In this document: piece after piece, positions 30,707-57,950 of the stretch
Layout of the letters: every line of letters starts with the position of its first letter
Numbering within the stretch: the first letter of the stretch is position 1
Source of the DNA: Bacteroidota bacterium
GTDB taxonomy: Bacteria; Bacteroidota; Bacteroidia; NS11-12g; UBA955
DNA: 63,837 nucleotides
Direction of reading: 5' to 3'
NCBI GenBank assembly: GCA_016868785.1
Contig: VGFS01000010.1
Location: 1-63,837 of the forward strand
Program-made: the position numbers and the translations under genes
The notes under the pieces: generated by a model
Database searches by the model: none
What the model saw: the letters and a program-made list of their open reading frames with translations, nothing else
What the model was told of the DNA's origin: nothing

Positions 30707-33700
30707 TTAATTGAAAGTGTAGCGGGCTTCAATACCAAAATCGGTGAGTGCGGTGTAGAACTGCGTGTTGATCTTGGGATTCATTACCACACGGTTGTAT
30801 TTCAAGGCCAAGTTGATTTTTTGGTTCACTTGGTAAGTGATGTTTGGACTGATTCTGATGTTTTTCATGCCCGCAGTGTAGCGATTCACATCTACGTCGA
30901 TCTTGCGAATTACCGTTACGTTGTCTGTGACACTCACCGTCATATCGAAACGGAAATCATTGGGCAAATACACCCATCTGCCGTTTCTTCTCCATGGCAT
31001 GGTGATGCCCGTGGTGCGATAACCCGCATTCAACTGGAATTCATTGTTGCGCATTTCGGTGAGGTTGAAGGAAGAGGCAAATAGCTTCAAAACCCTGGAG
31101 CGTTTGTATTCTACGCCTACGGTCCAGTTGTTTTTGGTGGTCACATTCAAACCAATCAACGGGAAGAATCCTTCCGAAATGGTGGCATCAGCAATTTGGT
31201 ATTTTGCTGTCAAATCTTTGCCCATCATCAAGGCTTCATTTGGGGTGTATTTCAGGTTTTGGGTATAGTTTCCAATGGAATACCTGCCGGTGTAGGCATG
31301 TTTGATGTTGATATTGTTGAAGCGGTTACCCAAGAATTTAATTTTGGTTAATCCATTGTAGTTCACGTTCCAGTTGGGCAATGGAATCGCTGGGAATCCT
31401 GAAATATCGCTATATCCAACATCTTGACCAGAGTAGGTTCCATAGAAAGCGCCAATCAAAGCATCTTGAGAATTCTTGCTGAAACCCAACGGGAATTTTG
31501 TGATGGTATCAATGGCTGTGCCCCCAATTCTCTGTGACGACAATCTTTGCGCTACCGTGTAGCGATTGTTCAACATTTGCGTGAAGACAGCATTGGGGTG
31601 CTGGTCGGAATTTTGGAAATTTTGATCTTTCACAAAATGCGTTTTGAAGAACATGCCGGTGACATTGAAGTTTCCGGTTTGTGTTAGACCTTGGTCCATC
31701 CACGCAAAGCCATCGTATTTGAAAACAGATTGTGTTCCTTGGGTGTGGTTGCGAGCAAAATCAAGGCGTATACGGAAGTTCTTAATGGGCTCAATGGTTA
31801 CGTTTGCCGTGAAGTTCTCCGTTTTGTTGTTTCGGTAAAAGTTGGATTGACGACTGTCGTTTTTCAATGCGCCTAAATCTGCCAACTTATATCGCAACAT
31901 AGGGTCTTGCAAGCCGAACACGAACCCTACGCCAGGTTGCATGTGTTTGAAATTGTTGCCGAAATAGTCGGGTTTGTAGGCAAAGCCAGGTAGTTCGGTA
32001 TTCTCTTTCAACTGATAACTAAAGCCCACATTCTTGAGCATGCTGATGAAGTTTCCAGCGAAAATCTTTGCGGGATTGGCTTTCTTCGTTTCGGGCTGAC
32101 CTTTTTGTAAGGCACTTTCGAAGGAAGGGCCTTCATCGTCTTGTTTGGGTGCAGGGGTTGTAGCGGTCGCAGGTTTCTTTACCTTCTTGGGTTTTTCAAG
32201 ATCGCGCAACCAAGGGATGGTTGAATACAATTGGGTAAAATTCAATTGACCACTTACGTTGATGTCTTGTCCATTCTGCAAGCGATTTCCCAAGGATTGG
32301 AAGGCGGGAGGCGCTTGGTTCCACTCATAACTTCCCACGTATGTTACCGTGGTGTTCATCCAACGGGTCAGTTTTGATTTGCTAAAGGGAAGGGTGTAGG
32401 TGGCGTTGACGTTTTGGTAGAATTTGGACATCCGGCCTAAGCTCAAGAATTCACGTCGTACCGAATCCAACTTAATCTCATTGTCCAACCTGCCATAAGG
32501 CTCTTGAATTCGTGAGGTAACATTGGCGGAATAATTGACTTTGATCGATTCTGTCAAAGGCAAGTTTGTGTTGAAATTGCGAAGAATTGTGAAGTTCTTA
32601 TCGAACAGTCTTGGGTTGACTTGTATGAACTTGTTGTTGTTTCGTGCTTGTTGCTCACTGTACAAACGGTTGGTTTGTATTTGTGTGCTGAAGCTAGATG
32701 GCATGAAGTTGTAGTTGAAATCCCTCACCAAAGCCAATTTCCTAGTCTTCATTTTGCGGAAGGGTTTGTGGTATTTTGTGTTTCTGTTGTAGGTGTACCC
32801 AATGGTGGCTTGTGTGGTTTTGATGAAGTACTCTTCAATTTGTTGATTCCTGCGGTAGTTGTTTTGATAACTGTATCCAAAAACGAAGTTGCTGGGCGAC
32901 CAAATCTTTGGCAGTTTGCCCATGGCGGAGGCCACCCTTACGTTGTTAAAGTTAATGCTATACAACGAATTGTATTCCTCAGCGGCTTTTTTCACCGCGG
33001 CCCTTGTGGATGCATCGGCAATCCCCGACAAGAAAGTTTTTAACTCTAAATCAGGATTTAAAGGGTAATACTTAGGTCTCGCATAGCTTTCAGAATAACC
33101 AATGTACATGGGGACACTCACGCCCGCTTTTTTCGGGAAGAATTTACCCAATTCCAGGTTTGATGCTATGTCGTAATTTAAGTTGGTGCTCAGACTTCTG
33201 TCGTTCAGTTTTTTATCTACATCACCAAATCCGATGGTCCGAATGGTGCCTCCCATGTTGAGCTGACCGAAATCGGCCAGTTGCATTTGAACGTTCGCCA
33301 AGGTGGCGTATCCTCCTTTATTGGCAATTTCCTTAACACGCAATTCGTTGAACCAGGTTTCAAAGCACTTGGGTGAATTGCTGTTGTTTTTGATACCTAC
33401 CATCATTACACGCAGGTTTCCAACATCGGGTAACCCCATTACTGTGATTTTCCCTTTGCTCGTGAATTTGATGTATGGAGCGGTCATCGGCCATGCGGCG
33501 TTCTGACGAGCAATTTTTAAATAGTAGAATGAATCTAGCGCGAAGTCCATCAAATTTTCCGCCGGCCAAATCAGCGCCGCCGCATTGCCTGAACGATTGT
33601 TGATGGTACCGCGTGTGATTTTCAGTGGAATTTCATATTCGTAATAGTTCGAAGTAAGGTCGGTACCAAAACGAATGAAGGCAGCAACTTCTCCATCTTG

Positions 33701-36700
33701 AATGGTCGTACCTTGGCTTTCTTCGGCGTGCACGTACAATTGCATTCTTTTGTAGTTGCGCGCATCAAAAGTTGTGGTTTTAAAGGCCGCTCTGCTGTCG
33801 CCCGCTTTCAATTCACACACCTGCAGAGAGAGGGATTGTTCGTTTTCTAAAACGGTGCCCAAACTAGCCATGTTTTGTACGCGATCAACGCCTAGAGGTG
33901 TTACATAAGCAATGGGATAGCGGTTGCTGTTTTCTTCAATGTTTACGGCGCTTACAACGAATTTGGTTCCATCGTTGGGATCTTGTGGGACAATCACACC
34001 TGGGGTTTTTAAACTATTGGTGTAACGACGCCAATCGGCGCGTACCATGTTGATGTAACCCATACGCAGAAGGGCTGTGTCATTGAATCCTGTCATGACC
34101 ATTCGCATGAAACGAATACTCTTGAAATCGCTGATGTTACCCACCGCTTTTTCGAATTCGCGAATCGGAATTTTCAACTGATACCAAGTGATGTCTTTTT
34201 CCTTGCCGTTGCGCAATTTTGTCTTTTTACGTACCACATCAGAAATGTAGTTGTTGCCAATTCGCATGTCTGAGGCATTGATTTTAATGCGATATTGGAA
34301 ATAGTCTTCGCTTTGGTTTAAAGTAAAATCGCGGTTTACGTCTTCGTCGGAAGGAATCGAAGTGGTTGACTTGGGCATCCCGTCGTATTTCCCGGTGTAT
34401 TTCTCGTTACTTGAGTTCCCTTGCAGACCTTGGATTTTTTCGTATCTGTGAATGATATCAGCATCTAATACATCATAGGCACTTTCTAAGTAATGAAGGT
34501 AATTGTCGTTGCTAGGGTCTTTTGATGCGTCTTTGTAGTACTGTGAACCAGCACCGAAATTCGCCGCGATTTTTTTCAAAAGTATGGTGTCGAAATGCGC
34601 CAATTCTTGCGCATCGTCCATTCCGTCAAGACCCACGTCCTGCGTTTGAAGCGTAGCAGGATTATTGTCAAAAGCGTAATTGATTTGGGGTCCGCTGGGA
34701 ACAATCGCCAATGAAGTTGTATCTGTTTCGGCAGTGCTGTTGGTGCCCGTGGGCAAGCCGTTTTCGAAAGACTTTCTGCGATCAGGCAAAATGTCTTCAC
34801 TCACGTTACCCAAGTGAAGCAGCAATTCACCCCTGAGGTTTGGGTTGTTAGACATTGGGTCGAGCATCCATATTTCAATGTAGTCGATGTTGGCTGCTTC
34901 GAAGTCGTTCTGGTCGATTTTCCGTGTGATACCAGCCCAACTCAATTCTGGATTCAGCAATTCCCCTTTGTCGTTGATCTCGCTTGGATTGCTGTTGTAG
35001 TTGTACATACCTCTGCTGGTAGGACGGAAAAACAAATCCAAAGTTGGCAAGATGGTAGGGGTCCCCTGAGGGAAGTTCCGCTGTGGAAATAATTCTCTTT
35101 GATCTACTTGGCGCTGGAATGGGTCGCTGAGAACATTGTCGACGCGCTGTTTGATGTTGTCTGGCATGTCGTTGTCTCGGTAAAACAACTGGTCAATGGT
35201 ATAAAAACTCAACGCCGCATGGTGATTCATCCAGGTGGTTTTGTCGTAAGTTTTTGTATCGGGGAAGCGATCCTCTTGTTTTTGAGGCACAGAAGCAACG
35301 ACCCAGTTTCCCACGCTTTTTAGGTCGTTGGACATTTCTGCATTTTCAAAATCTTCCAAATTTGAAACCCCACGTTGGTTTCCTTGAGATTTGTGGTTAT
35401 GGGGGAAAATCTTCGCAAACTCACCGTAGGCTGTGATGTTTGATATTTCTTTGGTTTCAAGAAATGGCAACGCATCTATGATTTTGGTCAAGAATCTTGA
35501 TTTAGAACTATAGGCCACATCTGCACCGATGATGGTATTCAATAGCGGCTCTTCATTGAAGTTGGTTTTTGTCGTTAGGGGTCTCTCATACATGTGCAGT
35601 GCTGTACCACCGACAATGAGTTTTTTGTTGAATTTGTGCTCAATTCTACCTCCAAGCAAAGTTTTTTGCTGAATGTTGAAGAAGCTCTGTCCATCGGCAC
35701 TGGCCCTAATTTCCGCACCTCCGCGAAGCAATCCCTCGTTGATGATTTTTACTCGACCCAAAGCGTAATCTACTTCGTAGTCCATTCCTTCGGTGAGGGG
35801 TCTTCCGTTGGCGGTGACGCGCACAGAACCCCGCTGTAGATTGGTGGTTCCCAAGAACAACTCGGCTCCGTTGCTGCTCTTGTAACTGCCCTGCAAAAAG
35901 AATTTATTGTGTTTGACATCTTGTTGGGCTAACCATTTGGTGCTGTCATAAAGCGCATCGTAACAGTAGTAATCGCCCAAGTCATTTCGCCCATTAAATT
36001 GTTCACGCATGAAATCACCGAATGGTTCTGTAACCGGGAAAATAATCCTTGCGTATTGGGTGTTTACGGTAAGTCCTTCAATCGCGTCAAATACACCGTC
36101 GGGCTTCGCCTCTTGCTGTCGGTTCAGTTTGTCCAATCCCAAAACCCGAATCAAAGGATTGCCATTAACCAGGTTGGGGCAGTTTGCATTGCCGATGGGT
36201 AAGTAGTTGTAATCGCCACCCGTAGTGTCGTCGGCATAGATGATGTTTAACTTGAAATCTTCCAAACTCAAGCTGTAGGTATTGAGTGCGTAGATGTTCT
36301 TCATCATCAATTTCCACATGGGCAAGGGTGTTCTGATTGTATTGCCTTTCAGCATTTTTAAGAACAACAATTGCTGATTACCTGGAGCAACGTCGCGTGA
36401 AAATTCACCCACTTGGAATACTTCGCCATTGTAGGTGTATTCGAAAGCAACCGCCAATATTTCATCGTTGTTCAACGGTTGATTCAGCGAGATAAAACCC
36501 AATTGCGTGTTTAAGCTGAATTCTTTATCGGTCAACTGACGGGCGTAGTTCAACATGTCGAAATCTACCGTTTGTTCAAAGTAGGGCATGTTGGCGAATA
36601 CCCGGTCTATGGCTTTTCCGGTGGTTCTGGCATCGGGGTCATTGACCATTTTGGCATACAGGGTATTGGCATCATTGCTGGCTTGTAAGTTTGTAGAACC

Positions 36701-37813
36701 ACCCAGTGGCGCTCTGTAAGGCTTGGCCTCTCCCAAATCCTGGAACGCAAGAATATCCCTGGGCGTTTCCACATTCGCGTTTCGGTTGGTCACCCATACC
36801 TCAACCCGGTTGATGATTACACCGCTGGCAACAATGGGCAAATTCTCCAAAGACCGATTGTAGTTTTCGCGGAAGAATTGTGAAAGGAAATAGTGCTTGT
36901 TTTGGTCGTAATTGTCGGCCGTGATTTTGAACTCGTTCATTTGGGCTCCGCCCTTGAGTACCGTCTCGGTACTTTGTCCCTTGTTTTGAGAAAAAACCGT
37001 TTTGATGGTGGTTTTTCCAAACTGCATGGTGTTAGAAAACCCAAACAAACTGTTGGCGGGTTTGATTAACTGGGTGGGTAAATTCAGGTTGACATTTCCC
37101 ACTTGCACGTCTTTCAAAATGCCATCCGGTTTGCCTTTCCATCCCAAATTGGTCTGGTTGTCGAATTCAAAAGCCGCCTCCGTGTCATAGTTGATCCCCA
37201 ATTTCACAAATTCACCCACGCTACCGTTGGCGCTGATTTGCATTTGTTGGTCAAACACTGGTACAAAATACTTTTGCTGACGTTTTGAAAAGTTGGGGTT
37301 CCTGTTTTCGTTGATGCTGCCACCCAATTTGATCATGGCGCTGCCATTCAACTGAAAATCAACACCCCCCTCACCGAAAATTTTCGACACAGTGGGGTTG
37401 TTCAATTCGGCCTTGATCAGTTCACTGATCCCTTTGTTATTCGGGCCCAATGCGTACGCACTCTGCGACTTGTCTCTGAAGTATTTCTCGCGCTCTAACT
37501 TGCCCTGTGTTTGAAAATACTCGGTTACCGATAAAGTTTCGCCCGTTGGGTAACTCAATGATCCCAAATTCCTGAATCCTTCGTAACGGTTTTCCCTGGC
37601 ATTGTATCGCCATTCCGTTTTGATGGGGTTCTCTAAGTCAATTTTACTGCCGCTAACCGAAGATTGAGCAATTCTGTATTTCAGACTGTTGGTATCGGTC
37701 TGGGCAAACAATGCCTTTCCTGATCCCGCCAATAGGCCAATCAGCAACAAACTTGTATGCGCGAATATTCGACAGCAGCTCGTTGATTTTGCGAGAAACT
37801 TCATTCTTAACAC
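30707..37813 (-). CDS. sprA: T9SS outer-membrane translocon SprA/Sov
   Basis: This giant outer-membrane beta-barrel of 2368 residues is the secretion pore of the T9SS and is required for gliding-adhesin export in Flavobacterium. Length and composition match SprA: a signal peptide up to LFAQTDT, and two SprA-N type regions (about residues 50-500 and again near 1000-1250). A long series of barrel strands ends in YTFN. A Lys/Pro/Ala-rich loop occurs near residue 1880 (KKPKKVKKPATATTPAPKQ). An ATG three codons in (37804) is an alternative start. It follows ruvA by 57 bases, a gene order common in Bacteroidota, and precedes porZ by 5. Confidence 0.95.
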   Translation of the reverse strand: MLRMKFLAKSTSCCRIFAHTSLLLIGLLAGSGKALFAQTDTNSLKYRIAQSSVSGSKIDLENPIKTEWRYNARENRYEGFRNLGSLSYPTGETLSVTEYFQTQGKLEREKYFRDKSQSAYALGPNNKGISELIKAELNNPTVSKIFGEGGVDFQLNGSAMIKLGGSINENRNPNFSKRQQKYFVPVFDQQMQISANGSVGEFVKLGINYDTEAAFEFDNQTNLGWKGKPDGILKDVQVGNVNLNLPTQLIKPANSLFGFSNTMQFGKTTIKTVFSQNKGQSTETVLKGGAQMNEFKITADNYDQNKHYFLSQFFRENYNRSLENLPIVASGVIINRVEVWVTNRNANVETPRDILAFQDLGEAKPYRAPLGGSTNLQASNDANTLYAKMVNDPDARTTGKAIDRVFANMPYFEQTVDFDMLNYARQLTDKEFSLNTQLGFISLNQPLNNDEILAVAFEYTYNGEVFQVGEFSRDVAPGNQQLLFLKMLKGNTIRTPLPMWKLMMKNIYALNTYSLSLEDFKLNIIYADDTTGGDYNYLPIGNANCPNLVNGNPLIRVLGLDKLNRQQEAKPDGVFDAIEGLTVNTQYARIIFPVTEPFGDFMREQFNGRNDLGDYYCYDALYDSTKWLAQQDVKHNKFFLQGSYKSSNGAELFLGTTNLQRGSVRVTANGRPLTEGMDYEVDYALGRVKIINEGLLRGGAEIRASADGQSFFNIQQKTLLGGRIEHKFNKKLIVGGTALHMYERPLTTKTNFNEEPLLNTIIGADVAYSSKSRFLTKIIDALPFLETKEISNITAYGEFAKIFPHNHKSQGNQRGVSNLEDFENAEMSNDLKSVGNWVVASVPQKQEDRFPDTKTYDKTTWMNHHAALSFYTIDQLFYRDNDMPDNIKQRVDNVLSDPFQRQVDQRELFPQRNFPQGTPTILPTLDLFFRPTSRGMYNYNSNPSEINDKGELLNPELSWAGITRKIDQNDFEAANIDYIEIWMLDPMSNNPNLRGELLLHLGNVSEDILPDRRKSFENGLPTGTNSTAETDTTSLAIVPSGPQINYAFDNNPATLQTQDVGLDGMDDAQELAHFDTILLKKIAANFGAGSQYYKDASKDPSNDNYLHYLESAYDVLDADIIHRYEKIQGLQGNSSNEKYTGKYDGMPKSTTSIPSDEDVNRDFTLNQSEDYFQYRIKINASDMRIGNNYISDVVRKKTKLRNGKEKDITWYQLKIPIREFEKAVGNISDFKSIRFMRMVMTGFNDTALLRMGYINMVRADWRRYTNSLKTPGVIVPQDPNDGTKFVVSAVNIEENSNRYPIAYVTPLGVDRVQNMASLGTVLENEQSLSLQVCELKAGDSRAAFKTTTFDARNYKRMQLYVHAEESQGTTIQDGEVAAFIRFGTDLTSNYYEYEIPLKITRGTINNRSGNAAALIWPAENLMDFALDSFYYLKIARQNAAWPMTAPYIKFTSKGKITVMGLPDVGNLRVMMVGIKNNSNSPKCFETWFNELRVKEIANKGGYATLANVQMQLADFGQLNMGGTIRTIGFGDVDKKLNDRSLSTNLNYDIASNLELGKFFPKKAGVSVPMYIGYSESYARPKYYPLNPDLELKTFLSGIADASTRAAVKKAAEEYNSLYSINFNNVRVASAMGKLPKIWSPSNFVFGYSYQNNYRRNQQIEEYFIKTTQATIGYTYNRNTKYHKPFRKMKTRKLALVRDFNYNFMPSSFSTQIQTNRLYSEQQARNNNKFIQVNPRLFDKNFTILRNFNTNLPLTESIKVNYSANVTSRIQEPYGRLDNEIKLDSVRREFLSLGRMSKFYQNVNATYTLPFSKSKLTRWMNTTVTYVGSYEWNQAPPAFQSLGNRLQNGQDINVSGQLNFTQLYSTIPWLRDLEKPKKVKKPATATTPAPKQDDEGPSFESALQKGQPETKKANPAKIFAGNFISMLKNVGFSYQLKENTELPGFAYKPDYFGNNFKHMQPGVGFVFGLQDPMLRYKLADLGALKNDSRQSNFYRNNKTENFTANVTIEPIKNFRIRLDFARNHTQGTQSVFKYDGFAWMDQGLTQTGNFNVTGMFFKTHFVKDQNFQNSDQHPNAVFTQMLNNRYTVAQRLSSQRIGGTAIDTITKFPLGFSKNSQDALIGAFYGTYSGQDVGYSDISGFPAIPLPNWNVNYNGLTKIKFLGNRFNNINIKHAYTGRYSIGNYTQNLKYTPNEALMMGKDLTAKYQIADATISEGFFPLIGLNVTTKNNWTVGVEYKRSRVLKLFASSFNLTEMRNNEFQLNAGYRTTGITMPWRRNGRWVYLPNDFRFDMTVSVTDNVTVIRKIDVDVNRYTAGMKNIRISPNITYQVNQKINLALKYNRVVMNPKINTQFYTALTDFGIEARYTFN

Positions 37814-37870
37814 TTCTTAACGTTGTGTAGCAGTTTGGCGAATAGGCTTATTTTTAGTTGGTTTTGCAAG

Positions 37871-43551: not shown

Positions 43552-43559
43552 TAAATTTG
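43552..43559 (+). promoter_or_regulatory. -7 element TAAATTTG of porQ
   Basis: This is an exact TAnnTTTG match ending 6 bases before the ATG at 43566. It overlaps the in-frame TTG codons at 43557 and 43560, so the ATG is preferred. Confidence 0.55.
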
Positions 43560-43565
43560 TTGCAG

Positions 43566-44645
43566 ATGCAAAAACGCGCATGGTTCTTCGGTTTGGCGAT
43601 GGGGATTCTTTCGCTGAATGCCCAAACGGGTGGTACAGGCGTTTTTCGCATTTTGGATGTGCCGTTGCATAGCAGGGCTTTGGCTTGGAGCGGTTACCTG
43701 GTAACTCAACCTTATGGAGATGTACTGCAATCGGTCAACAACCCGGCTTTGCTCAACGAAAGTCATGTTGGTAAGTTTGGTTTGAGTGCAGGATCTGTCT
43801 TGCCTACCGTGATGACAGCCAACGCCACAGGTGCTTGGAAAGGCAAGCGATTTATGTGGTCGGGATTTGCTCAGCTCATCGATGCCGGAGCAATGGATGC
43901 TTATGATGCCGGTGGAAATCCGCAAGGCGAGGTAAAAGCTAATGAAACCCAAATTGGGGTGAGTGCCTCTTGTCAAGTAGAGCCCAGATTTAGGGTGGGT
44001 GCTCAAGTGGGTATGGTGTACAGCGTGTTGGGGCCATATGTTTCCAATGGTGTATTCATGAATCTCGGTTGCAATTATATCAAACGCGATTCGGTGCTTA
44101 GTTGGGGATTGTTGGTGAAGAACCTCGGGGCGCAAATTGTAACCTATCGGGATGCGGCTCGCGAACCTCTGCCTATGAACATTCAAATGGGTGTGTCGTT
44201 GAGCCCCAAGCACATGCCATTTAAATTTCATATTACCGCCCACAGTCTTCAGCGCTGGGATTTGACCTATGACCAATACATCGACAATGGTGGGAAAATC
44301 GATTTGAACGGAAAGCCCGTTGTGCCATCAGAGGCTGGTTTTGCGGCAAAATTGATGCGGCACATGGCCCTTGGGACTGAATTGGCGCTCGGACAAAATT
44401 TGAGTTTTTTGATTGGATACAGTCATCAGCGCAGAATGGAAATGTCGACTTCCGAGCGCAGAGGTACCTCGGGTTTTGGTTGGGGAATGAAATTTAAAAT
44501 GGCCAAATTGGACATTACCTATGGTAGTGCTTCCTATTTTCCGGGTCAAAATTCTAACCAATTTTCTTTGTCAATTGACCCAACCCGCTTCTCAAAAAAG
44601 CGCACGATTGCTCATGTGGCTTTTAGGGGTATACCAGAACTTTAA
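43566..44645 (+). CDS. porQ: T9SS outer-membrane protein PorQ
   Basis: This 359-residue outer-membrane beta-barrel protein belongs to the PorQ family, needed for T9SS function in Porphyromonas. Family features are the signal peptide ending LSLNAQTGG, the early VNNPALLNE segment, a YDAGGNPQGEVKANETQIG motif, a GVFMNLGCNYI strand and NLGAQIVTYRDAAREPLPMN. The gene is followed after 8 bases by cmk, a porQ-cmk pairing typical of Bacteroidota. It is divergent from the ribF-gld-sprA-porZ block, so the window holds three outer-membrane T9SS components. Confidence 0.87.
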   Translation: MQKRAWFFGLAMGILSLNAQTGGTGVFRILDVPLHSRALAWSGYLVTQPYGDVLQSVNNPALLNESHVGKFGLSAGSVLPTVMTANATGAWKGKRFMWSGFAQLIDAGAMDAYDAGGNPQGEVKANETQIGVSASCQVEPRFRVGAQVGMVYSVLGPYVSNGVFMNLGCNYIKRDSVLSWGLLVKNLGAQIVTYRDAAREPLPMNIQMGVSLSPKHMPFKFHITAHSLQRWDLTYDQYIDNGGKIDLNGKPVVPSEAGFAAKLMRHMALGTELALGQNLSFLIGYSHQRRMEMSTSERRGTSGFGWGMKFKMAKLDITYGSASYFPGQNSNQFSLSIDPTRFSKKRTIAHVAFRGIPEL

Positions 44646-45337: not shown

Positions 45338-45386
45338 GCCCTTGATTTCGTTGATATCTTGCGCATAACCTTGTTTGGGGATGTTG

Positions 45387-45394
45387 TATTTTTG
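45387..45394 (+). promoter_or_regulatory. -7 element TATTTTTG of tpiA
   Basis: This is an exact match ending 7 bases before the tpiA ATG at 45402. It rules out the in-frame upstream TTG at 45375 as start. Confidence 0.55.
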
Positions 45395-45401
45395 TGGAAG
45401 T

Positions 45402-46166
45402 ATGAATAGGCAAAAAATCGTTGCGGGTAATTGGAAAATGCACAAAACCTTGGAAGAGAGCCAAGCGTGGATCACTGAAGTAAGAGGCATCGTAAGAGAT
45501 GAGTATCGCGGGGATGGCAAAGTGGTGTTGATTCCAACCTTTTTGGCGTTGCCAACTGCGGCGAGATTGTTGGAGGGGAGTGGTTTGCAGGTGGGTGCTC
45601 AAAATGCCCATCAAGAAGATCAAGGCGCTTACACCGGTGAAATTTCTGCGGGCATGTTGAAGTCGATAGGGGTTGATTATTGCTTGGTGGGACATAGTGA
45701 GCGACGTCAATATTTCGGCGAGACGAACGACGTGTGTGCGGCCAAAGTGAAGTCTGTGATTCGACATGGGATGAAGCCCATTTTTTGTGTGGGTGAGACG
45801 TTAGAGCAACGTGAAAGCAAGCAATATTTTAGGGCCATTGAAGAGCAGGTGGTTCAAGGGTTGTTCCATTTAGATCGCAAAGAATTTGCCCAAGTGGTGG
45901 TGGCTTACGAGCCTGTTTGGGCCATCGGAACGGGTTTGAATGCCTCTCCAGAGCAAGCGCAAGAAATTCATGCTTACATCCGCAAACTGATTGCCAATCA
46001 GTACAATGAAGAAGTGGCCGCTGCAACATCGATTCTCTACGGGGGAAGCGTGAAGCCAGAAAATGCGGCTGCGTTGTTTCTTCAGGGCGATATCGATGGT
46101 GGATTGATCGGTGGTGCTAGTCTGAAGGCCCGCGATTTCATCGATATTGTGAAGGCGATGCGCTAA
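45402..46166 (+). CDS. tpiA: triose-phosphate isomerase
   Basis: This 254-residue glycolytic enzyme interconverts dihydroxyacetone phosphate and glyceraldehyde-3-phosphate. Catalytic residues are in place: Asn10 and Lys12 in AGNWKMH, His98 in GHSERR, Glu170 in YEPVWAIGTG, and the phosphate loop YGGSVKPEN. The start at the ATG at 45402 gives the family N-terminus. A 1504-residue secreted-protein gene follows 42 bases later on the same strand without a clear terminator, so the two may share a transcript. Confidence 0.97.
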   Translation: MNRQKIVAGNWKMHKTLEESQAWITEVRGIVRDEYRGDGKVVLIPTFLALPTAARLLEGSGLQVGAQNAHQEDQGAYTGEISAGMLKSIGVDYCLVGHSERRQYFGETNDVCAAKVKSVIRHGMKPIFCVGETLEQRESKQYFRAIEEQVVQGLFHLDRKEFAQVVVAYEPVWAIGTGLNASPEQAQEIHAYIRKLIANQYNEEVAAATSILYGGSVKPENAAALFLQGDIDGGLIGGASLKARDFIDIVKAMR

Positions 46167-46208: not shown

Positions 46209-49200
46209 ATGATGATGCTTCGAGCCCTTTTTACCATTGTATTGTTTGCCCTCGGGTCTAAATTGTCGGCCCAAAACGGTAGCTTTAGTCCGGTTCCTGC
46301 CACGTTTATCGCGGAATTTGAGGCGTTTATTGCCAAGGCGAACGACAAGGGATTGACCCGCAATTTTGCCGTGTTCAAAGAAAATTGGGAGTTGGGAAAG
46401 TTCTCGCCCGGTCAGCAAAAATTTATCATAGATATCAGCAATCAGATGCTCGCTGAGAAAATGTCGCTGCAACCACATTTTCAATTGTTTATGACCACTG
46501 TTGCGGCATTTTTGGAGAATAAACTGCCCGATAAAATCTTACTACAGTGGCAAAATATTACCAAATCGCTGCTGGGAAATAGTAACAAAGAATACCTCGA
46601 CTTTTTAACTACCACGGCCAACTTGTTCGCAAACAAGGTGGTTTATCAGTCCGGAACTACTCTTTGGAAGGTTGACACCCTGGATTTCGACATGTATTAC
46701 AAAGGGGAGATTGAAATTCATTTTGGGCAGGTAGATTTGGTTTGTCAGGGATTCATGGATAAAATGGTGGTGAAAGCCACCAAAGGCATCTATAAGCCAG
46801 CCAAAAATATTTGGCTTGGGGAGTATGGGACCGCTGATTTTCAACGTTGCCTGCCCGATGAGTCGGCCTATGTGAAGTTTGGTAAATTTCGCTTGAATTT
46901 GGACGTGAATACCTACAGTGTAGATTCTGCATCGCTTACTTATAACCGGTATTTTAAAACTGCGGTGTTGGGTAAATTTACCGATAATTTGTCGAGCGCC
47001 ACCGATTCATTGAAAGTAAAAAAATCGGGATTCCCGCAATTTAACTCTTACGACAATGAATTGTTGGTGCGAGGCATTGTAGGGGATGAGAGTTTCTTCC
47101 GCGGGGGCTTTACCATGCAGGGTCATACCATTACAACGGCAACAGCCAATGGAAAACCTTCGGTCATCGACGTGTTCTACAAAGGCAAGAAAAAGGTAAC
47201 ACTCAAGAGCAAATCGTTCAAAATATCGGATGGCATTGCGGGTACATTGCAAGCGGAGTACACCTTATACCTCGACAGTGTCACCACCATTTATCACCCG
47301 TTCGTTAAAGTCAACTTCATCTTCAAAGACAACAAACTCATCGTAGATCGCGGCGAAGAAGGATTGATGCGGGTACCCTTTGCAGATAGCTATCACAATG
47401 TGAGCTTGGATGTCCAACAAGTTCGCTGGGTCATTACCGAACCCTTTGTGGACTTTGATAACGTAAACAACGACCTCGAAGCCCGAATATCTTCGGATGA
47501 CTTTTTTCGCGACATTCTCTATAACCGATTGCAAGGACCCCTACGCTCTCATCCCTTGGAAGGGCTTGTGGCATTCTATAACCGTCAGCCCGAAGACCCC
47601 ATCTCCAACCAGTTGCAGCAGGACATCAAGCGATTGATGCTTTCCAAAGATCCTGCAGACAAAGCCAAAGCGGATGCCAAAATGAAGCAGTTGCAAGCCC
47701 GCAAAGCAGAATTGCGCGAATACTACAAGGCCGAGCAGCGTCAGAAATTCTCTTTGGATGACTATGCGTTCTTTCAGAAAACCCAAAAAGAGTATTTGGT
47801 TGCGCCATTCTTGGAACTGCACGACCAAGGATATATCAACTACCTACAAGATCAAGACAGCGCGATTCTTCTGCCCAAAGCCTTTCGCTATGTGCAAGCC
47901 CACCAAAAGATGCGTGATTATGATGTGATTCGCATTTCTTCCATCATTGGTGCAAGACCAAATTTTACCCTCAATTTGCTGTCGAACGAGATGAATTTGG
48001 AAGGGGTTTCGAAATTTTTCTTCTCCGATTCTCAGAACGTGATTGTGGTTCCTTCTAATCAGCAAGTTACCCTAACCAAGAACCGCGGACTGAGATTTGG
48101 CGGACAGTTGCGTGCAGGTCGATTCGATTTCTACGGTAAAAAATACGTGTTCAATTACGGTCAGTTTAACATTGCGATGTCGGCCGTAGACTCATTGCAA
48201 ATGTATTTCCCGGATTCCTCGGGCCGCAGGTTGGTTCCCATCAAATCGGTGTTGCGAAACGTGAGTGGAACATTGTATATCGACAAGCCCAACAACAAAT
48301 CCGGCAACAAGGATTATCCTGAATATCCCATTTTTGTGTCGGACAAGGGCAGTGAGGTGCTATACGACAAACCCCACATTCACGGCGGTGCCTATGAGGG
48401 CGATAAGTTTAAGTTTGTGATGGATCCGTTTACGATTGACAGCTTAGACAACTTCACCATTGCCGGTTTGCGTTTCGATGGCAACTTTATTTCGGATGGG
48501 ATTTTCCCTGAATTCCGTCATTACGTGACCATTCAAAAAGACTATTCCTTGGGATTTATCAAGCATACACCGCCCGGAGGGTACACCATGTATCGCGGAA
48601 AAGGGCTGGGCGATATGACCATGAATTTGTCAGAGGAGGGTTTTTATGGTACGGATGGTAGCATCCAATATCAAGGATCGAAAAGTGAATTTACCAAAAT
48701 CTTGCTGTTGCCGAAAAAAGCAGTGGGTGTGCTGAATCGCTACGATTTGGCTGAAAATACCAAATACCCCGAGATCCATGCCGTGATGGCCAACATGGAG
48801 TGGAATCCCTATCAAGACGAGTACAACGTAACCAATGGCATAACACCCATCAAAATGTTTAAGGTGGGCCACGACTTTACGGGCACAATCACCCAGTCGC
48901 CCAGCATGGTGAAAGGAAATGGAACCTTGGCATGGGATCAAGCGAAGTTTTATAGTCAGGAGCAAGTGTTTGGTCCTCAGAAATCAACCGCGAAAAAAGC
49001 CAATTTGCAGATTTATGCGGCTGACTCCTCGCGGATGGCATTTGAAACCAGCGACATCAATGGTACCATGGATTTCAGCAAACGCATAGGAACCTTTACT
49101 AAGAATGAGCCTGGTTCAATGACGAAGTTTGATTACAACATGTACCAAACCAACCTCACGGATTATCGCTGGGACATGGACAAGAAGATCATCACCGCGA

Positions 49201-50723
49201 AGGTGGGCCCTTCACTGGCCGGACAATCCCCCATTTTTGCAAGCACCAATCCAACCCAGGGCGGTCTGAGTTTTGAAGCGAAACGGGCCGATTACAGCTT
49301 GGTGGATTATACCCTCAAAATTTCTGAGATTCCGTATATCGATATCGCCGATTCAAGATTGTTCTTGAAAGATGGCAAAGCCACTGTGCGTGCCAATGCC
49401 GATATGGACCTATTGGATAGTACCAAGTTGATTGCCGGAAAGGACAATAAATTCCATGAAATTTATAAGTTGAAAGTAAAGGTCTATGGTAAAAATAAGA
49501 TTCGAGGCAATGGTTTCTATCAGTATGTGAACAGTCGCGGTGGCCGACAAGAATTCTTCCTCGACAGCGTGATCGTGAATGAAAATCAACGAGTGGAAGG
49601 GGTTGGAAAGATCGCCGAGGAGCAGAACTTTACCTTGGAGACAAAAATTGGGTACAAAGGCTTCGCTCAGATTGAAAGTACAGAGAAGCTTATCCGATTT
49701 ACCGGTTACGTGAAACCGTTGCATACGTTCAAGAACATTTATCCTTCGGTTTGGATTCGTTTCGACAACCGTGTGGATCCCAAATATGTGGTGCTTGACA
49801 TGAGCGACCCCCGCGATAAAGACAATAAAAAGCAATACGTGGGATTGTTTGTCGCCAATGATTCAAGCTTCGTGTATCCCCTGATGTATTCATGGAAACG
49901 TCGTTACTCTGATGACGATGTTACCAATGATACGGGCATTTTCTACTACGACAACAAGACAGAAAGCTTTTATGCAGGCAGCAAGTCTCGATTGCGCGAT
50001 GGTGGACTCAAGGGCAGCTGGATTCAATTTAACGAACGCAATCATAGCATTCATGCCGAGGGGCCTTTGGATTTTGGACTCGAAACGCCCAACATCAAAT
50101 TTAAGAATGCGGGTACGGCAGATTTGTATCCCGGCGATAGCAGTTTTGTGTTCAACTTGGCGATGATGCTGGATTTCCCCATGCACCCCGATTATGTAGA
50201 ACGCTTGGTGGCACTGATCAACGAAAATGGAGGCAATACTGCAACCGTTAATACCGATTTCTTCAAACGTTGTTTGGGCGAGATGATGGAAAGCGAGAAG
50301 GCCTATCGCAACGCCTTGGAGAATTTGATGAAAAACGGCGAATTGAAAGGCAAGGACGAGGCGGAATACAAGTTGGTACTCAGCGATGCTACCTTCAGAT
50401 GGGATAGCAAACTCCGCGGGATGTATTGCAACGACTTAGTTTCAGTGGCCAGTATCGCAGGCAAGCCCATCAATAAGAATATGCATGCCGTGATGCTGTT
50501 AGAACACAAACGCAGCGGTCAAAACATGTATGTTTACCTCGATTTGGGCGCCAACGATTACATCTACATCAACCTCACCAAGACGGGGGCGAATGTGTAT
50601 GCAACGGACCAAAACCTGCAACAAATTTTGACGAATACAGCCGACAAAGTGAAAGCGGAGAACTTCTATATTCGTCCGGCAACCGAACGTCAGGTCGACA
50701 AATTCCTTAGACGTTTTGAATAG
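46209..50723 (+). CDS. very large exported protein of unknown function
   Basis: I do not recognise this 1504-residue protein. It has a signal peptide (LFTIVLFALGSKLSAQ), so it enters the periplasm. A helical part covers about residues 25-140. Long beta-rich stretches follow with repeated short strands (for example VDLVCQGFMDKMVVKATKGIY), interrupted by a charged helical segment near residues 470-520 (KRLMLSKDPADKAKADAKMKQ). The C-terminus (ERQVDKFLRRFE) is not a T9SS domain and does not end like an outer-membrane barrel. The beta layers recall beta-taco/OstA or AsmA-like bridge proteins, but no motif proves this. Start ATGATGATG at 46209. The stop is 8 bp from the convergent truA. Confidence 0.75.
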   Translation: MMMLRALFTIVLFALGSKLSAQNGSFSPVPATFIAEFEAFIAKANDKGLTRNFAVFKENWELGKFSPGQQKFIIDISNQMLAEKMSLQPHFQLFMTTVAAFLENKLPDKILLQWQNITKSLLGNSNKEYLDFLTTTANLFANKVVYQSGTTLWKVDTLDFDMYYKGEIEIHFGQVDLVCQGFMDKMVVKATKGIYKPAKNIWLGEYGTADFQRCLPDESAYVKFGKFRLNLDVNTYSVDSASLTYNRYFKTAVLGKFTDNLSSATDSLKVKKSGFPQFNSYDNELLVRGIVGDESFFRGGFTMQGHTITTATANGKPSVIDVFYKGKKKVTLKSKSFKISDGIAGTLQAEYTLYLDSVTTIYHPFVKVNFIFKDNKLIVDRGEEGLMRVPFADSYHNVSLDVQQVRWVITEPFVDFDNVNNDLEARISSDDFFRDILYNRLQGPLRSHPLEGLVAFYNRQPEDPISNQLQQDIKRLMLSKDPADKAKADAKMKQLQARKAELREYYKAEQRQKFSLDDYAFFQKTQKEYLVAPFLELHDQGYINYLQDQDSAILLPKAFRYVQAHQKMRDYDVIRISSIIGARPNFTLNLLSNEMNLEGVSKFFFSDSQNVIVVPSNQQVTLTKNRGLRFGGQLRAGRFDFYGKKYVFNYGQFNIAMSAVDSLQMYFPDSSGRRLVPIKSVLRNVSGTLYIDKPNNKSGNKDYPEYPIFVSDKGSEVLYDKPHIHGGAYEGDKFKFVMDPFTIDSLDNFTIAGLRFDGNFISDGIFPEFRHYVTIQKDYSLGFIKHTPPGGYTMYRGKGLGDMTMNLSEEGFYGTDGSIQYQGSKSEFTKILLLPKKAVGVLNRYDLAENTKYPEIHAVMANMEWNPYQDEYNVTNGITPIKMFKVGHDFTGTITQSPSMVKGNGTLAWDQAKFYSQEQVFGPQKSTAKKANLQIYAADSSRMAFETSDINGTMDFSKRIGTFTKNEPGSMTKFDYNMYQTNLTDYRWDMDKKIITAKVGPSLAGQSPIFASTNPTQGGLSFEAKRADYSLVDYTLKISEIPYIDIADSRLFLKDGKATVRANADMDLLDSTKLIAGKDNKFHEIYKLKVKVYGKNKIRGNGFYQYVNSRGGRQEFFLDSVIVNENQRVEGVGKIAEEQNFTLETKIGYKGFAQIESTEKLIRFTGYVKPLHTFKNIYPSVWIRFDNRVDPKYVVLDMSDPRDKDNKKQYVGLFVANDSSFVYPLMYSWKRRYSDDDVTNDTGIFYYDNKTESFYAGSKSRLRDGGLKGSWIQFNERNHSIHAEGPLDFGLETPNIKFKNAGTADLYPGDSSFVFNLAMMLDFPMHPDYVERLVALINENGGNTATVNTDFFKRCLGEMMESEKAYRNALENLMKNGELKGKDEAEYKLVLSDATFRWDSKLRGMYCNDLVSVASIAGKPINKNMHAVMLLEHKRSGQNMYVYLDLGANDYIYINLTKTGANVYATDQNLQQILTNTADKVKAENFYIRPATERQVDKFLRRFE

Positions 50724-56590: not shown

Positions 56591-57763
56591 TTATTTCGGA
56601 CAGGTTTGGCACTCAATTACCTTGGCATCGAAAACTGCCTTTAATGGAATGTTGCGCTCAGGTTGTGTGGGGTCGTTGCTCACAATCCAAATGGAGTAGT
56701 TGGCATTCCCCTTTTTTAATACGGTTTCAAAAAACACTTTCACCGTAACCGATTTTCCGGCAGGAATTACCAGTTTGGCCTGTGGGTACTTGGGCGATTT
56801 CTCAGTGGGGTATTTCAGTGAAATACAGCCGCAATCACCCGCGATTTCATGAATTACGAGTTCGGATTGGCCTGGATTCGACAAAGTGATTTCTGTGGCT
56901 AGAATGTCGCCGGCCACTTGCTTGCCAAAATTGATTTCTGGTTTGTCGGTGGTTAGTTTTGGTTGTTTTGCCAATTGCTTGGCGTTGAGTTTTGGGAAAA
57001 ACTGCTTGCGGTTGTAATTGACGTACATCGCATTGTACAAAGCCGCAGGGTTGTCGGTGATGAAGGGCAATTCAATGGTTGAAAAGCCGTAGTGCTTGAT
57101 TTTGGTGCCATCAATGATGACCGAAAATTTGCCGCTTTCATAGGGTTCCAGTGTGCTAGGGAACGCGGTTATGGTAAGGAAGTCTGGAATGCTGCCTGGT
57201 TCGATGGGATTGAAATTAGCCGTGTAAGGCGTTTCATTGGTTATACGTATGGTTTGAGAATCTCGATGATTGTCGTACAGGGGGTTGAACGTAATGGAAG
57301 GGGCGCTGTATCGGATTTGACCTAAATCGGGGATGGGTGCTGCATTCGGGTCGATCTCTTCCTTGAGTACTTCTCCTTCAATATCCAGATGAACGATGGG
57401 CGCATTGATGGCGTTGGAGTATACCGTGATGGATTTTTTAAATTCTCCGATGCGGTTGGTGGTTTCATATCTTGCTTCAATAAATCCTTTGCCACCTGGC
57501 AGGATGGAGTCACGGGTCCAGTCTGGGGTAGTGCAACCACAAGAGGTATGTACTTGCTGGATAAATAGGGTTTGGTTTCCCATATTTGTGAAGGGGTAGC
57601 GGTGGGAAGCAAATTTGATGGATTCGGAGACTTTGCCAAAATTGTGAATGCTGTGATCGAAAATGATTTCAGGTCCTTTGGTGGGTTGCTTCGTATTTTG
57701 CGCGAAAACGGGGCGGTTGGTTATAGATAGGAGTGTAAAGCTGAGGACTGTCAGGATTCTCAT
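56591..57763 (-). CDS. exported DUF1573 protein with two ASH-like domains
   Basis: This 390-residue exported protein of unknown function has a signal peptide (MRILTVLSFTLLSITNRPVFAQ). Two DUF1573-type beta-sandwich domains are visible. The first, about residues 32-130, begins FDHSIHNFGKVSES and carries TSCGCTTPDW. The second, about 275-385, begins INFGKQVAGDI and carries GDCGCISLKYP. The CGC motifs are typical of the domain and may form a disulfide or bind a ligand. A middle domain of similar fold without Cys lies between. The ATG at 57763 gives a proper signal peptide; an in-frame start at 57805 would lie upstream of the promoter box. It is divergent from the ribosomal operon. Confidence 0.8.
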   Translation of the reverse strand: MRILTVLSFTLLSITNRPVFAQNTKQPTKGPEIIFDHSIHNFGKVSESIKFASHRYPFTNMGNQTLFIQQVHTSCGCTTPDWTRDSILPGGKGFIEARYETTNRIGEFKKSITVYSNAINAPIVHLDIEGEVLKEEIDPNAAPIPDLGQIRYSAPSITFNPLYDNHRDSQTIRITNETPYTANFNPIEPGSIPDFLTITAFPSTLEPYESGKFSVIIDGTKIKHYGFSTIELPFITDNPAALYNAMYVNYNRKQFFPKLNAKQLAKQPKLTTDKPEINFGKQVAGDILATEITLSNPGQSELVIHEIAGDCGCISLKYPTEKSPKYPQAKLVIPAGKSVTVKVFFETVLKKGNANYSIWIVSNDPTQPERNIPLKAVFDAKVIECQTCPK

Positions 57764-57790
57764 GGTGCGAATTTTCTGGGTGGGAAGTAT

Positions 57791-57798
57791 CAAAAGTA
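57791..57798 (-). promoter_or_regulatory. -7 element TACTTTTG of the DUF1573 gene
   Basis: This is an exact TAnnTTTG match on the minus strand, 27 bases upstream of the ATG at 57763. Confidence 0.45.
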
Positions 57799-57950
57799 GT
57801 ACCAAAGTTGAAGACGGAGAAAAAAAGATGAAAGTTGCTTGAAGGGTGGCGATTACAGCGTTTTTGGGAAGTGGCGATGGAATTTAACGCCGAATTGGTG
57901 AGATAATTGGGAATCTTTTGAAAACACGGCCATATTTTTTTCGTACAGTA

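Follow-up and report, generated by a model that had tools for sequence, protein, structure and literature searches.

The stretch of DNA analysed here (the window, 63,837 nucleotides) contains a gene for an exported protein of 1504 residues and raises the question of what so large a protein contributes to the cell envelope. How lipids cross the periplasm is open even in E. coli and is less known in Bacteroidota; AsmA-like proteins were tied to periplasmic lipid transit in E. coli only recently (PMC8593681, PMC8912898). A first-pass annotation had listed the gene downstream of tpiA as one of the largest of the window, had found no domain that could be named and had suggested that the product may be a lipid-transfer bridge of the LptA/OstA or AsmA/TamB type. 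The open reading frame (46209..50723, + strand) was confirmed by its relatives, opens with ATG and lies 42 nt 3' of tpiA (45375..46166, +) on the same strand, and co-transcription of the two genes is likely. It is faced by truA. It does rank with the largest genes in the window, but its size is exceeded by that of the gene for the T9SS translocon SprA/Sov (30710-37816, - strand, 2369 codons; TIGR04189, 2191 bits).

To place the protein in a family, Pfam, NCBIfam and PHROGs were searched, but no model reached its cut-off. The best Pfam match, DUF5626, had an E value of 0.032 and remained under its own cut-off. NCBIfam gave no match of any kind and hence no T9SS C-terminal sorting domain, as annotated. 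Across 23 diverse family members Pfam revealed no common domain, and neither an OstA/LptD_N/OstA_2 domain nor a TamB (PF04357) or AsmA (PF05170) domain was present in any of the 23. A search of PDB sequences detected no solved protein of similar sequence, no enzyme family was matched in Pfam, NCBIfam or PDB sequences, and a literature search found no paper describing the family, which is weak evidence of absence.

The N-terminus carries a putative type I signal peptide (residues 1-22, 46209..46274, +), recognized from sequence, hydropathy and an AQ/SQ cleavage region that is aligned in the relatives. It reads MMMLRALFTIVLFALGSKLSA, ends in SAQ, and cleavage was predicted by eye to occur before Q. 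The sequence contains no lipobox cysteine and just four cysteines in all, and hydropathy analysis gave no second hydrophobic segment (the best 19-residue window beyond the first 25 residues averages 0.94). Neither an inner-membrane anchor nor a lipid anchor nor an outer-membrane barrel was seen. Where AsmA/TamB proteins have an N-terminal anchor helix, the hydrophobic stretch of this protein resembles a cleavable signal peptide, and we infer that this signal directs export to the periplasm.

It is a real conserved gene. A single copy is present in its own genome, and all 39 relatives carry it. Of 65 genomes of the home order, drawn from two families and 18 genera (requested at a completeness of at least 90%), 64 have it as a single copy. 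Of 395 genomes sampled throughout the phylum, 14 carry the gene, a patchy distribution confined to the class of the window's genome. Outside the home order, members of the family are found in a small number of Bacteroidia families, frequently at a conserved locus with prmA; f7, f10 and f11 are three families with genomes in which the gene again lies 3' of prmA. The recurrence of the locus in distant families points to vertical descent accompanied by losses. Amino acid identity of the protein between the window's genome and a second genome (G012) is 95.5%, with synonymous sites saturated. The value for TpiA is 95.4%, and those for Cmk, PorQ and a TonB receptor are 79%, 77% and 83%, respectively. 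In this comparison the dN/dS values for the thiolase and OS_HP2 genes were inconsistent with protein identity and were left out. Conservation of the sequence at the level of TpiA suggests a core function.

For structure prediction, an alignment of the protein with homologues from 54 other genomes was used, and AlphaFold2 was run on two overlapping pieces, residues 23-850 (piece 1) and 505-1504 (piece 2). Mean pLDDT values were 87.9 and 88.6, pTM values 0.67 and 0.57, respectively. The models bear out the annotated helical N-terminus followed by a stretch of over 1000 residues in which short strands prevail. All parts being encoded on the + strand, piece 1 begins with a predicted N-terminal domain of six helices (residues 23-142, 46275..46634), followed by beta region I (residues 143-434, 46635..47510). 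According to the alignments and the model, a helical insert (residues 435-504, 47511..47720) comes next, of which residues about 455-504 are clade-specific and present in part of the family only. Between beta regions I and II lies a probable winged helix (residues 505-566, 47721..47906), a tentative assignment based on a VIA-align match to IclR 3r4k (Z 6.2, 64 residues); weak winged-helix Pfam matches occur in single family members. Beta regions II (residues 567-850, 47907..48758), III (residues 851-1090, 48759..49478) and IV (residues 1091-1326, 49479..50186) are separated by borders that are our own and descriptive. In region IV, modelled in piece 2, the strands continue without an established fold match. 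The same piece ends with a predicted alpha/beta domain (residues 1327-1504, 50187..50720), which is the least conserved part of the protein. This domain and the winged-helix-like insertion had not been part of the earlier description. Together, the beta regions comprise about 86 predicted strands in roughly 1100 residues.

Both pieces were compared to the PDB by Foldseek and VIA-align. With Foldseek, LptD, LptH, LptC and LptA were top or near top for both pieces (piece 1: LptH, probability 0.99, and LptC, 0.98; piece 2: LptD, 0.98, E 1.5e-6, and LptA, 0.99). In the VIA-align results, every row with Z >8 for either piece was LptA, LptC, LptH or the N-domain of LptD. These matches fall at three places in the chain (Z 8 to 10.9). 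Within region I, residues 211-433 matched LptC (6mjp_C, Z 10.1) and LptA (2r1a_C, Z 9.8). The highest value (Z 10.9) was that of an LptD N-domain with 153 residues aligned in the range 247-592, so that the alignment passes over the winged helix. In region II, residues 571-778 matched LptC (4b54_B, Z 9.5), and residues 846-1066, largely in region III, matched the LptD N-domain (9a39, Z 10.6) and LptA (2r1a_E, Z 9.0). In the LptA and LptC rows named above and in the best ones of LptD, 115-153 residues align at 3.0-3.5 A, while unrelated rows had Z <=6.9. A best Z between 7 and 8 is typical of models without a clear match, so that an isolated value around 9 is modest. The fold case rests mainly on the finding that, in two pieces predicted separately, one fold family takes up every row above Z 8. 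These searches barely reached region IV, the N-terminal helices or the C-terminal domain. No TamB or repeated-beta-groove structure was among the PDB matches listed, which proves nothing about absence, and a viral structure library gave only weak matches to tail fibres and repeats. The protein is thus predicted to have a beta-taco (beta-jellyroll) fold in several segments, and the beta part showed neither separate globular domains nor homology to an enzyme family, the two outcomes that had been named as speaking against a bridge.

The segments are also related to each other. Comparison by hhalign revealed an internal repeat between residues about 792-848 and 880-937 (95% probability, 57 columns), and a 43-column stretch of region II aligned with region III (87% probability). 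Regions I and II reached 53%, compared to 22% for a noise pair. In the strands, hydrophobic and polar residues alternate with a value of 0.387, exceeding the mean (0.255) and the maximum (0.321) of 300 shuffles of the strands, although any beta sheet with a single hydrophobic face would show it too. If all 86 strands formed one continuous taco with two strands to each 4.8 A turn, it would extend over about 20 nm, a figure that is arithmetic only but near the width of the periplasm. It is conceivable that the segments do not form such an array and that the protein is a soluble periplasmic carrier, each taco segment holding lipids while the chain does not span the periplasm. The lack of anchors at either end and the inserted and flanking domains that interrupt the beta region would fit a carrier, but the number of strands and the internal repeats favour an elongated array, and we regard this explanation as decidedly unlikely.

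Region II stands apart from the rest of the protein as its most conserved part. At 43 of its positions, many of them polar, the residue is conserved in at least 90% of the 23 members, and the region carries the polar motifs DYD (570-572), SDS (606-608), NKSG (696-699) and SLGF (780-783). From their sequence, D570, D572, SDS606-608 and NKSG696-699 could instead constitute a binding or catalytic site. The protein might then be an enzyme or a sensor in which region II is the active or ligand site, merely framed by the taco segments. However, not only do the sequence libraries lack a matching enzyme family, but no enzyme occurs among the structural matches with Z >7 either. Hence, an enzyme or sensor appears very improbable.

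In the first-pass annotation, kinship with the LptA/OstA or the AsmA/TamB type had been proposed, with profile-profile searches and structure prediction as checks. The Lpt beta-taco stood up by predicted fold, with matches above Z 8 in both pieces, but the sequence marks of either family are missing. Profiles of OstA_2 (LptA-like) and of LptC, built from proteins of the same genomes, gave no signal when compared by hhalign with that of the 1504-residue family (probabilities of 3.7% and 0.4%, respectively). The same comparison of OstA_2 with LptC yielded only 17%, which makes it a weak instrument for the Lpt fold. Judged by these sequence marks, the protein belongs to neither the LptA nor the AsmA/TamB family. 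LptA/OstA proteins bind LPS and bridge LptC to LptD. What the protein shares with the components of this bridge (LptA, LptH, LptC and the N-domain of LptD) is the export signal to the periplasm and the predicted beta-taco at three places (Z 9 to 11). LptA is a single small polymerising domain, whereas the chain described here is several times longer, with several putative taco segments, and adds helical, winged-helix-like and C-terminal domains while lacking an OstA or LptC sequence domain. Its gene is not located beside Lpt genes and coexists with those of LptC and LptF/G. Bacteroidota also have an LptA-like OstA_2 protein of about 500-600 residues, which is likewise exported and beta-rich, but the two proteins are encoded by different genes in the same genomes.

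The window's genome contains LptC, two LptF/G proteins, one TamB and one AsmA match. OstA_2 was detected there only below the cut-off, within another large frame; the genome is rated 100% complete, yet has no OstA_2 above the cut-off. Because the gene is present in most genomes of the same genus and in every other genome tested, a gap in the assembly is the likely explanation. For the same reason, the idea that the protein replaces a missing LptA was rejected. With LptC, LptF/G, TamB and AsmA encoded in the same genome, it is an additional component that adds to the known lipid routes.

TamB and AsmA proteins are also very long, periplasmic and beta-rich, and the TamB of this genome is encoded in an open frame of 1505 residues. 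They are, however, encoded by separate genes in the same genome, and the protein differs from them by its cleavable-looking signal peptide and the lack of both a visible inner-membrane anchor and a TamB or AsmA Pfam domain. The resemblance to TamB leads to the main rival explanation, according to which the protein serves outer-membrane proteins in the periplasm as a chaperone or scaffold, its taco segments guiding unfolded or amphipathic protein strands and carrying no lipid. Such a role has been proposed for TamB, itself a long beta-taco protein. In Flavobacterium johnsoniae, TamB and TamL are essential, and depleting TamL altered the outer-membrane proteome strongly but lipids only slightly (PMC12045153). 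The winged-helix-like and helical domains would suit protein contacts as well. On the other hand, the lack of a visible TamB domain or membrane anchor, together with the separate tamB gene, make a chaperone function unlikely.

The most likely role of the protein, to which we give about an even chance, is that of a soluble periplasmic lipid conduit. The signal peptide would take it to the periplasm, where the beta region of roughly 1100 residues would fold as several LptA-like beta-taco segments along one chain. These segments probably align to form one hydrophobic trough, along which lipid (for instance LPS/lipooligosaccharide or phospholipid) might be carried or slide between the inner and outer membranes, and docking to membrane partners may fall to the helical N-terminus, the C-terminal domain and the winged-helix insertion. 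Since LptC and LptF/G are found in the order and an LptA-like protein in nearly all genomes, it would work alongside the usual Lpt bridge and not in its place. In favour of a conduit we counted the restriction of rows with Z >8 to Lpt proteins, the Foldseek probabilities, the pLDDT values, the internal repeats, the strand alternation and the array of about 20 nm, and further the signal peptide without a membrane segment, the near-universal single copy in small genomes and the conservation equal to that of TpiA. Against it stand the missing sequence relation to OstA_2 and LptC, the lack of a visible membrane or lipid anchor or barrel, the otherwise present Lpt set, the conserved polar motifs in region II, a genome context that says little, and the pTM values. 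As a tentative extension, the protein may be a lineage-restricted, previously undescribed single-chain soluble bridge of LptA-type segments, spanning the periplasm beside Lpt and TamB/AsmA, probably essential in the order and supplying the outer membrane with lipid by a further route. The protein is a good candidate for a component of envelope building that has not been described before. A conserved unnamed protein with a predicted Lpt-type fold in several segments offers a direct handle on whether a further Lpt-fold route exists and suggests that the beta-taco is used in an architecture far larger than LptA that sequence profiles have missed.

The genetic neighbourhood was also considered. 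In part of the home order, the gene order is prmA or tpiA, the 1504-residue gene, plsY and clpS, and pairing with plsY was found in this part and in one distant genus. A link to phospholipid synthesis via plsY was rejected, since prmA and plsY also lie together in genomes lacking the gene, and it is further weakened by several families that possess the gene and in which no plsY was found; this neighbour therefore says little on function. A single-protein search detected no plsY in several complete gene-carrying genomes of the families f7, f9 and f10, whose acyltransferase route may differ. In two f4 genomes without the gene (L206 and L211), prmA and plsY are adjacent and followed by an M48 peptidase gene, and the locus looks as though only the 1504-residue gene were missing. 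PorQ (43557-44645) and SprA are two T9SS parts within the window, but a T9SS link is not supported because the neighbours elsewhere are tpiA/prmA and plsY/clpS. The window also holds an open reading frame of 404 residues (56591-57805, - strand) whose matches to the models for OS_HP2 (seleno)protein and for choice-of-anchor D fall just short of the cut-offs.
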